A stretch of 48,750 nucleotides of DNA, taken from positions 175,762 through 224,511 of the forward strand of contig NZCT01000024.1 of the NCBI GenBank assembly GCA_002688355.1, in the 5' to 3' direction. This stretch comes from an archaeon (GTDB lineage: Archaea > Nanobdellota > Nanobdellia > SCGC-AAA011-G17 > GW2011-AR20). The translations under genes were made by a program, and so were the position numbers. Shown here in pieces: positions 29,569-39,444 of the stretch. The notes below the pieces were generated by a model. It saw only the letters and a program-made list of their open reading frames with translations. It did not search any database and was not told the DNA's origin. Position 1 is the stretch's first letter. Each line of letters opens with the position of its first letter.

Positions 29569-30816
29569 ATGATAGAATTTGAAGAACAACAATTAGGAAC
29601 TCATAAAGTTACTATAGTAAAAGAATACAAAAATCCAAAACATTTGGAAATAGAGCTAACAAATTGTAATTTTTATAGAAATATAAATCAACAACGTCAA
29701 AAGTGGAGTAGTTCTTATATAAATTTTAGAGATATAATATCCAAAGATAAAGAAAACAACACATTAGCATTCTATGACGCAGGAAAATATTCTATAACAG
29801 ATTTAAATGATTCGGGTTTTGTAAATATAAAAACATTAGAAGAATCAATTATTCAGATAGCTAGGTGCGCTATAGAAGGTCAAAAAGGAATAGAAGAAGG
29901 ATTAATAACACCAGATGGAAGCATAACACAATATTTTCAAGATAATAAAAACCGAGAAGAAATTTACAAAGAAATAGAGGAAAGAATTTTACAACCAATG
30001 GTAGAATATGATAGGAAAGGAAAGGAAATTCACCATACAACAAAAGACGATATAATAAATTTTTTTACAGAATTACGTATAAATCAAATTAAATTAATGC
30101 AACAATACATAAAAAACTATAATAAAGGTCTTGTATATATTTATGATTCACATCCTGATAACATTAGAACATCAGATAAAGAATCAAAACAAGTAGTACT
30201 AGCAGATTTAGACTTAGGTTTTCAAACATTTGAACCTGAAGTTTTTATTAGGTTATTACAACCAGGATTTCAATACAATTTAGATCCTAAAATTTTCCCA
30301 TTAAAAGACGAAGTTAAACGTGTTTCAAAAGCTCTAGATTACGCACAATTACAAACTCTTCGTTCTCGTGCTATTATAGATGATAATGAAGATCTTATAA
30401 TTAAGATAGATAGATTCCTAGAAGACAAAACAGTGTTTAAAAGTCTAAAAGAAAATAATGAATTCTACAACTTTATTTCCAGAGAGGAAAAAAATGAATA
30501 CAAATTTTTATCAAATTTAGAATTAATTAGACATCATTTAAAAGAATACAGTAGGAAAACTAAGTTATTAAACCAAAAAAAAGATAATTATGATGATCAA
30601 AATATTTCATTGACAAGAAAATTAGAGAACATGCGTAATAACCATCTAAAAATGTTTAAAATATGGACAACTGCATTAGTATTGACATCAAAAGGATCTG
30701 AAATAATTGGAAAAAGAGATGGATTCTTTATTACAAAAATATTATCACATATTTTACATAAAGAAGATAATAATTTAAGTTTATCAAAAGAATTATATGA
30801 AAAATATATTAATTAG
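29569..30816 (+). CDS. Uncharacterised protein with kinase-like catalytic motifs
   Basis: YIYDSHPDNIRTSDKESKQVVLADLDLGF resembles an APH/protein-kinase-like HxDN...D-x-D segment. Confidence 0.45.
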   Translation: MIEFEEQQLGTHKVTIVKEYKNPKHLEIELTNCNFYRNINQQRQKWSSSYINFRDIISKDKENNTLAFYDAGKYSITDLNDSGFVNIKTLEESIIQIARCAIEGQKGIEEGLITPDGSITQYFQDNKNREEIYKEIEERILQPMVEYDRKGKEIHHTTKDDIINFFTELRINQIKLMQQYIKNYNKGLVYIYDSHPDNIRTSDKESKQVVLADLDLGFQTFEPEVFIRLLQPGFQYNLDPKIFPLKDEVKRVSKALDYAQLQTLRSRAIIDDNEDLIIKIDRFLEDKTVFKSLKENNEFYNFISREEKNEYKFLSNLELIRHHLKEYSRKTKLLNQKKDNYDDQNISLTRKLENMRNNHLKMFKIWTTALVLTSKGSEIIGKRDGFFITKILSHILHKEDNNLSLSKELYEKYIN

Positions 30817-37067: not shown

Positions 37068-37355
37068 ATGATAGAAAAAGAACAAGTTATAGAATATTTG
37101 AAACAAGTCCAAGATCCTGAGTTAAATATAGACGTCTGGACATTAGGTTTAATTTACGATATTAAAATAGCTGAAGATGCTTTAAATATTCAAATGACAT
37201 TTACTACTCCAATGTGTCCCTACGGACCAACATTAGTTGAAAGCATTAAAATGAAACTACTTTCTCTAGAGAAGATTAATCAAGTAGATGTAGAAGTAGT
37301 TTTTGATCCACCTTGGCAACCTAATGACGAATTAAGAGCAATGTTAGGTGTATAA
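37068..37355 (+). CDS. MIP18/DUF59 family Fe-S assembly protein
   Basis: VQDPELNIDVWTLGLIYDI...FTTPMCPYGPTLVESIK...VVFDPPW. Confidence 0.92.
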   Translation: MIEKEQVIEYLKQVQDPELNIDVWTLGLIYDIKIAEDALNIQMTFTTPMCPYGPTLVESIKMKLLSLEKINQVDVEVVFDPPWQPNDELRAMLGV

Positions 37356-37368
37356 AAACAAAATTATT
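37331..37368 (+). repeat. Left copy of direct repeat (3' end of DUF59 gene)
   Basis: attaagagcaatgttaggtgtataaaaacaaaattatt. Confidence 0.9.
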
Positions 37369-38623
37369 CTAAATTTTTTATTATTCTTTTGTAAATTTCA
37401 AATTCTTCCTTAGATAAACACAAATCCTTTGTTGGCCAGAAAGGATCTACATCTTCTCTATTCAGTATGGAAGTTGCTTCAGGAATAATATCTTTTATAG
37501 ATTGAAGTGCCTCTGTGAATATTCCTTTCATAATTAAATCTTCAAAGTTTTCTCCACGACCAGAATCATTAGTTAAAGAATATAAATTTAGACAGCTTGA
37601 ATGCCCATAACCTGCTATGTGATGAGTTAAACTCCAAATATGTTTCTCAGGATATCTTTCACGAACTAAACTATTATTTACTATCCTTGATTGATAATCA
37701 TTATAGATAATTCCAATACAATTTTGTTGAATTTGTAGTTTTTCCTCAAACCCAATTAGCAATCTACTTTGTTCCCATAATTGATAAAGTCCTTTAATAT
37801 CAACCACTTTGGATGCATATTCTATAACATCGTTTCGTATCTGTTCTATCTTTTCTGAATCCATTAACAATATAGAAAACTGTTCCTTTGTTTGAGAGTT
37901 TCCAATTTTATAATTTGAATTCACAGGGATTAGTTTATTCTGGAAATTATAATTCGTTTCATCATGAATAAATACAATAACATCGTTAAGAAATATCCTT
38001 GATGCTTTCTTTTCATTCTTAGAAATTCCAATATCATTATGGTCTGACCAAATAATTAGCGCTCTTGGGTACACAGAAAATAAATAATGTTGCCAAAATC
38101 TCTTTTCATGTTCATCCATATTAGGATTATCATCTAAATTAAGGGATTCAACTACTCTATAAATAGTATCCAACATATTTAGACTATATTCTTCAGAATG
38201 TTCCTTTGATTTCTGAGTTAATTCTTTTTCTATTGAATTAATTACTTTATTTACATTATCCATATCTACAGTAGAGCTTTCAATCTTTTTCTCTAATTCA
38301 TTCATCATTTCAATTAATCCTTCTCTATCATTTTCATTCTCAAAATAAAATATTGATCTATTTTGTAAATCTTTTTTATTCATTAAATCAATTAAGCTTG
38401 CTTTAAATGTTTTGAAATAACTATCTAATTGATTTTTATCATGATCGTCTTTCTGTACATGCTCAACTAAACTAATTAAATTACTTTCTGTATTTTCAAC
38501 ATAATGCAAAAGGTTATCTTTATCCTCTAGATTGTCTCTTTCTATATGATCTTTAATCTGAGCTAAGTGAACATTTATATTTTTAAGGAAATGTAATAGT
38601 TCTTGAATTGCCGTAATCTTCAT
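37364..38623 (-). CDS. 419-aa protein of unknown function, coiled-coil N-terminus; cargo of the repeat-flanked insertion
   Basis: Complete ORF with SD GAGGTG upstream; long acidic/helical N-terminal half; no recognised family. Confidence 0.75.
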   Translation of the reverse strand: MKITAIQELLHFLKNINVHLAQIKDHIERDNLEDKDNLLHYVENTESNLISLVEHVQKDDHDKNQLDSYFKTFKASLIDLMNKKDLQNRSIFYFENENDREGLIEMMNELEKKIESSTVDMDNVNKVINSIEKELTQKSKEHSEEYSLNMLDTIYRVVESLNLDDNPNMDEHEKRFWQHYLFSVYPRALIIWSDHNDIGISKNEKKASRIFLNDVIVFIHDETNYNFQNKLIPVNSNYKIGNSQTKEQFSILLMDSEKIEQIRNDVIEYASKVVDIKGLYQLWEQSRLLIGFEEKLQIQQNCIGIIYNDYQSRIVNNSLVRERYPEKHIWSLTHHIAGYGHSSCLNLYSLTNDSGRGENFEDLIMKGIFTEALQSIKDIIPEATSILNREDVDPFWPTKDLCLSKEEFEIYKRIIKNLE

Positions 38624-38674
38624 TCACCTCTTTAAATTATATAAATTATTGATATAAAAAGTTATCTCAAAAGG

Positions 38675-38713
38675 ATTAAGAGCAATGTTAGGCGTATAAA
38701 AACTAAAATTATT
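38675..38713 (+). repeat. Right copy of direct repeat (displaced DUF59 3' end)
   Basis: attaagagcaatgttaggcgtataaaaactaaaattatt; one substitution and one 1-nt indel vs left copy. Confidence 0.9.
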
Positions 38714-38739
38714 TAAAACATAATAATTATTCTTTTAAT

Positions 38740-39444
38740 ATGTATGAATATTTAATTGGTAATTTAGGTTTAGGATTAATGTGGCTATTTCTATATATTA
38801 AAAATAATAATTTAAGAAAAGAAATGATTTACGGAGGTATTCTATATGTTTCTATAATAGCACCAACAATAATTATAACAAAACTATTATCGTATTTCAC
38901 ACAAATAACTTGGAGATATGTACCAGATTATTTTAACCCACATACATTATTTAATTTAAGTAGGAAAACTGGAATTTTATCAATAGAAGATATATTATTC
39001 ATGTTCTTAGCAGGAGGGATTATTGTTACAATCTATGAAATAATATTTAAAAAAGAAATAATTAAAACACATAAAAAACACCACATCTTAGCATTGATCT
39101 CTTTCTTTTCAAGTTACATAATTATAGCATTAATTTTTAGTTTTAATCCAATATATAATTTAATCATATCAAGTTTTATTGGTTTTTTAGTCATAACATT
39201 TCAAAGATCAGATTTAATCAAACACTCAGTTTACGGAGGAATAGCATTCACAGTTCTTTGGTTTATCTTAGTAATATTATTTAATATAGTATTTCCAAAT
39301 GTACTTCAAGAAGGGTTCTGGAACTTAAACAATATAAGTGGAATCCTAATGTTAAAAGTTCCTATAGAAGAATTATTATATGCATTTACTTTTGGATTGA
39401 TGTTTGCACCAATGTATGAATATATTAAAGGTTATAAGAACTAA
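38740..39444 (+). CDS. Lycopene cyclase-domain-like membrane protein
   Basis: TWRYVPDYFNPHTLFNLSRKTGILSIEDILFMFLAGGI and second-half VPIEELLYAFTFGLMFAPMYEY. Confidence 0.6.
   Translation: MYEYLIGNLGLGLMWLFLYIKNNNLRKEMIYGGILYVSIIAPTIIITKLLSYFTQITWRYVPDYFNPHTLFNLSRKTGILSIEDILFMFLAGGIIVTIYEIIFKKEIIKTHKKHHILALISFFSSYIIIALIFSFNPIYNLIISSFIGFLVITFQRSDLIKHSVYGGIAFTVLWFILVILFNIVFPNVLQEGFWNLNNISGILMLKVPIEELLYAFTFGLMFAPMYEYIKGYKN

Follow-up and report, generated by a model that had tools for sequence, protein, structure and literature searches.

The window (the whole 48,750-nt stretch of DNA analysed here) lies in the 962-kb genome G000, a fragmented assembly of 32 contigs. Within the window, an intact gene on the forward strand (37068-37355) encodes a 95-aa DUF59/MIP18 protein (Pfam FeS_assembly_P, PF01883, E 1.9e-15). 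Its last 8 codons together with the 3' flank (37331-37373) form the left copy of a direct repeat, while the right copy (38675-38717, forward strand) is a detached DUF59 3' end that, as the preliminary description of this DNA had noticed, still reads LRAMLGV-stop with no gene attached. Between the copies, a gene for a 419-aa orphan protein is found on the reverse strand (37364-38623), convergent with the DUF59 gene, with its stop codon (37364-37366) inside the left copy. The region between the start codon of the orphan and the right copy (38624-38674, reverse strand) contains, judging from its sequence, an A+T-rich stretch and a ribosome-binding-like site, AGAGGTG. Downstream, a forward-strand gene (38740-39444) encodes a lycopene-cyclase-like membrane protein (PF18916, E 6.4e-17), separated from the right copy by a short gap of about 40 nt.

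We found that the two copies are 86% identical over 43 nt in an ungapped comparison, with a spacing of 1344, and that they form the longest direct repeat of the 3-kb region. Repeat search and gapped alignment bore out the differences reported earlier, a single GGT/GGC substitution together with a 1-nt indel within the first approximately 39 nt, as well as a weaker similarity that extends to 37390 and 38736 (85% over 62 columns, 65 bits). Should the repeat reach 37390, the last eight codons of the orphan would also be derived from the target. The repeated sequence occurs in two copies only in the whole of G000, and the repeat is not a matter of chance, given that no inverted repeat of at least 55 bits was found at comparable spacing in approximately 954 kb of this genome. 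Assembly duplication was rejected since the left and right copies differ. The list of open reading frames agrees with the earlier account of a 1344-bp unit that carries the orphan alone (the sole open reading frame of at least 80 aa) and no integrase; the 419-aa protein itself lacks an integrase domain.

The preliminary description had proposed an insertion, for which a relative with an empty site would be expected, and such a site is found in G027, a genome of the same order. There, 31 nt separate the DUF59 gene from the next gene, a homologue of the one at 38740, and no insert lies between them. Although the lycopene-cyclase-like gene turned up in just 3 of the 18 genomes examined for it, it adjoins DUF59 in G027, and in the window it is the right copy, not the left, that keeps the short distance to this gene. 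Furthermore, the orphan is missing from most other relatives: a cousin of the 419-aa protein was found in one of 40 relatives, G006, the nearest of them. In this 365-aa cousin, identity to the window orphan is 48% across approximately 110 N-terminal residues, and the C-terminus is unrelated. It does lie between duplicated gene ends, as had been anticipated, but the gene concerned is not DUF59. The cousin precedes an aminotransferase gene, next to its 5' end, and a 37-nt segment, made up of the first 35 nt of the aminotransferase gene and the 2 nt ahead of them, recurs beyond the orphan at 97% identity. An IS200-like element with a single transposase (L023 3300-3910) sits between the G006 orphan and the intact aminotransferase gene and may be a separate insertion. 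No orphan was found beside the aminotransferase gene of the window or beside the DUF59 gene of G006. Together, the comparisons of G006 and the window place two members of the orphan family at different gene ends, each flanked by a copy of that end. Our data indicate that the orphan family inserted twice, independently, beside different gene ends, and the reading of the DUF59 locus as an insertion that regenerated a gene end is well supported.

We questioned what the orphan encodes. A profile search across the class (378 genomes) gave strong matches in G000 and G006 only. A weak third relative in G202 (L047 3495-4568, reverse strand; hhalign probability 77%) has 357 aa, N-terminal similarity and a HELIH metalloprotease-like motif, and no flanking repeat was found around it. 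Viral contigs contained no relative of the orphan, and a scan of genome contigs returned one contig only, from a Woesearchaeota metagenome-assembled genome, in which the match is placed nearly as in G006. The 419-aa protein had no Pfam match above the cut-off, no match in PADLOC and none among solved structures. Single-sequence structure prediction was of poor quality, with a mean pLDDT of 41 and moderate confidence for the N-terminal helices alone; an N-terminal helical domain of approximately 115 aa is common to the orphan and its G006 cousin, while the C-terminal part is without relatives. As a single open reading frame of no known family, the window cargo is not a recognizable type II toxin-antitoxin (TA) module. 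Given the N-terminal domain with its exchangeable C-terminus, and given that comparable insertions hold toxin-antitoxin pairs, we infer that the protein is most likely an effector or addiction-type protein with a conserved N-terminal helical domain and an exchangeable C-terminus. Elsewhere in the window, a second orphan of 415 aa (29569-30816, forward strand) contains a stretch that by eye is kinase-like (YDSHPDNIR...LADLDLG); it had no Pfam match above the cut-off and no flanking repeat.

To place the locus in its genomic context, direct repeats spaced 250-4000 bp were surveyed in 954 kb of G000 and in the initial 800 kb of G002, a genome of the same family that is assembled as one contig. 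At a threshold of at least 40 bits, direct repeats outnumbered inverted repeats by 48 to 1 in G000 and by 24 to 1 in G002, counts that include repeats inside genes (domain repeats) and paralogues. Since many direct repeats are of these kinds, the cassette cases were picked by reading the loci by hand. The arrangement of a gene end, a small cassette and a detached gene end was found about ten times in G000 and about nine times in G002, a list that outside the window was read by hand and in which several repeats are very A+T-rich; some further repeats are weak or A+T-rich. An automatic test agrees in direction: the last 80 nt recur downstream in 8 of 1615 genes, while mid-gene segments do so in none of 1615. 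In 400 kb of the genome of another family, no more than one such case was present, and six TA loci of E. coli K-12 were without gene-end duplication. Overall, our data indicate that the DUF59 insert belongs to a larger group of similar insertions within this Woesearchaeota lineage.

The cassettes measure 0.4-1.8 kb, with duplications of 25-95 nt, and their cargo consists mostly of toxin-antitoxin pairs (VapBC, ParE, HEPN-MNT, Fic) or orphans; domains identified in the other G000 and G002 cassettes include VAPB_antitox with PIN, ParE_toxin, NTP_transf_2 with HEPN, and Fic. In G000, VapBC adjoins a ferredoxin gene with a duplication of 42 nt (100%), a pair of the ParE family is placed next to a VIT-like membrane gene (30 nt, 100%), and a 145-aa gene neighbours a NUDIX gene (51 nt, 96%). 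In G002, MNT-HEPN pairs are found beside RNase Z (56 nt, 96%) and beside a methyltransferase (70 nt, 81%), and a Fic gene beside Dph2 (28 nt, 96%). A DUF4258-like and MazE-like pair in G027 lies between two genes whose shared 25-nt junction is duplicated exactly. Synteny revealed empty sites for several further cassettes, among them two in G000: Zpr1 and Dph2 are adjacent where G002 has the Fic cassette, and two genes lie 2 bp apart where G002 has a RelBE-like cassette.

The duplicated sequences differ at every locus, and among 16 target sequences no word rose above the shuffled control, which leaves neither a common motif nor a common attachment core. Except for the IS200-like gene in G006, no integrase or transposase was found near the cassettes. 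Cargo genes frequently run convergently to the target gene, and their open reading frames sometimes end in a stop codon derived from the target (the window orphan, a VapC in C9 of G000, an MNT in G002). For about half of the loci, the end of the duplication coincides with the stop codon of the host gene or lies at most 3 nt from it. The suggestion of a cargo-swap hotspot was not borne out at the DUF59 locus, while serial arrays were found at two other loci. In G000 (C24 29831-32243; L085 11831-14243), the 3' end of a single gene is present four times, interleaved with three different cassettes that carry a 168-aa open reading frame, a YoeB-like pair and a DUF2283 pair. In G002 (C1 386527-389140; L132 6527-9140), a gene end present in three copies is accompanied by two cassettes, a HEPN-MNT-like pair and a 213-aa protein that by eye resembles a caspase/CHAT protease. 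Apart from the cassettes, L057 6-2403 (C5 of G000) contains a row of open reading frames of approximately 70-85 aa with a conserved 3' end of approximately 40 nt (AYMRKH-stop), which resembles a tandemly arranged small-protein family.

Within the array of G002, identity is 99% among the fragments and 93% between fragments and gene, so that the copy attached to the gene is the outlier, and most differences between the gene and the first fragment lie on one side of an identical 47-nt block. Across ten loci picked by hand, the 23 differences between gene copy and fragment comprised 16 synonymous and 7 nonsynonymous changes, a synonymous excess over the expectation for a decaying duplicate (p 0.002-0.02, assuming selection on the gene copy and a kappa of 2-6). 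The synonymous excess and the one-sided differences suggest that the gene copy and the fragment may derive from different alleles, a reading that we hold as suggestive only since the sample is small.

We compared this footprint with known systems. Like the islands of tyrosine integrases, the DUF59 insertion lies at a gene 3' end, regenerates that end and leaves a detached fragment on the far side, and it has the direct repeats, similar to attL and attR, that such islands show. Unlike them, the insertions described here are small, with targets specific to each locus and no conserved core, and the window unit is without an integrase. The preliminary description had read the locus as a footprint of site-specific integration; of this, the insertion with a regenerated gene end stands, while classical site-specific integration is not supported by these differing, motif-less targets of variable length. 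Insertion sequences and casposons share with the present loci a direct target duplication, but here the duplications are far longer and variable, rather than of the fixed short length left by DDE transposons, and no inverted ends were noticed. The window unit contains no transposase, and no Cas1 homologue was found in G000, G002, G006 or G027, while control genomes matched. As regards integron cassettes, for which attC sites and IntI would be expected, the repeats at the present loci are ends of host genes. The variable targets without a motif, the lack of Cas1 and the lack of a recombinase in the unit argue against a classical integrase, a transposon and a casposon alike. In their cargo, the cassettes resemble mobile type II TA modules and TA islands, being patchy, recent and sometimes clustered with unrelated TA pairs, but the window cargo is a single orphan rather than a recognized TA pair. 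The mobility of TA modules and TA islands of mixed type were described by Makarova et al. 2009 (PMC2701414). The words 'direct repeat' do not occur in the text of that paper or of a later review (PMC7167474), and within the part of the literature covered we found no publication that describes this gene-end footprint. The footprint is akin to known insertions that regenerate gene ends, and there is a real chance that it represents a new class.

Insertion-duplication of the Campbell type through short homology is known from laboratory plasmids. It predicts a gene end, a cassette and a gene-end fragment, with a repeat as long as the shared homology; it differs in that natural circles of this kind are, for the loci described here, a proposal. 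We favour, as rather probable, a model in which a small circle integrates through a single crossover within short gene-end homology. On this model, a small cassette of approximately 1.3 kb, with a promoter and the 419-aa gene, would have inserted at the DUF59 3' end, leaving the full gene on one side and a copy of its end of approximately 40-60 nt on the other. The cassette would travel as a circle, or an equivalent fragment, together with a short segment of the target gene acquired in a donor strain, and would enter through the crossover described. Recombination between the copies could then excise it cleanly, so that mainly addictive cargo would be expected to persist. The short-homology step is suggested by the variable lengths, the absent motif, the synonymous excess and the pattern of the G002 array. 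Speaking against the model are the duplication ends close to stop codons, which no model considered here predicts, the small hand-picked sample behind the synonymous excess, the cargo AKR in C16, which does not belong to the addiction genes, the near absence of the pattern from the genome of another family, and the weakness or A+T-richness of some further repeats.

A staggered break, the main rival of this model, could give a similar outcome. Two distant nicks on opposite strands would leave an overhang of 25-95 nt, a foreign fragment would be captured, and gap filling would duplicate the target. This requires neither a dedicated enzyme nor homology, and it fits the variable duplications without conserved ends or motif, the cargo frames that borrow a target stop as if the fragment ends were arbitrary, and the several copy pairs that are 97-100% identical. 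The bias of copy differences to synonymous sites, the array copies that agree with each other and not with the gene, and the compact, non-random cargo all count against it, and we regard it as somewhat unlikely. Mobilization in trans, with a tyrosine recombinase acting on a non-autonomous cassette whose repeats serve as attL and attR, would account for the regenerated gene end between direct repeats, and tyrosine recombinase matches were found in four of four genomes tested (four in G000, all outside the unit). However, repeats that are unrelated between loci, variable in length and without a motif above the shuffled level, the lack of a recombinase within the unit, and an orphan family that occupies the 3' end of a gene in one genome but a 5' end in the other speak against it. 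We consider such mobilization, which a very relaxed enzyme might perform, improbable.

Two readings would dispense with a small mobile cassette altogether. A tandem duplication of the gene end and the orphan, with later loss of the second orphan and no insertion, would yield the observed order of gene end, gene and detached gene end. It was rejected, and we give it very little probability, because the right copy keeps the ancestral short distance to its neighbour (about 40 nt, compared with 31 nt in G027) and no remnant of a second orphan is seen there, the orphan is missing from nearly all relatives and the same footprint recurs with unrelated cargo. A larger integrated element, virus or plasmid, that decayed until one gene survived was among the earlier suggestions, and archaeal proviruses are indeed flanked by long direct repeats (PMC4158269). 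The unit, however, is without any viral or plasmid gene and no relative was found in viral contigs, and decay is unneeded since many compact, intact-looking cassettes, including gene pairs at other loci, share the footprint. We consider this origin highly improbable.

Circle integration, the reading that we prefer, leads to a broader proposal, which we offer as tentative: a new minimal class of mobile elements might exist, consisting of TA or effector cassettes of 0.4-1.8 kb that bear a short segment from the end of a host gene, lack a recombinase, pass between strains as circles, enter through short homology and build arrays at a gene end. Chromosomal TA genes turn over fast, and the mechanism of their chromosomal integration, outside classical mobile elements, was called unelucidated in the review of Fraikin et al. 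2020 (PMC7167474). The footprint is possibly a trace of how TA genes and single genes enter chromosomes. As a readable mark of 25-95 nt, it makes insertions countable in strain collections as dated, reversible events, and it offers a route to effector families that, like the 419-aa orphan, have no homology to guide their discovery. If true, the class of minimal cassettes would be a general entry route for TA genes into the chromosomes of this archaeal lineage.
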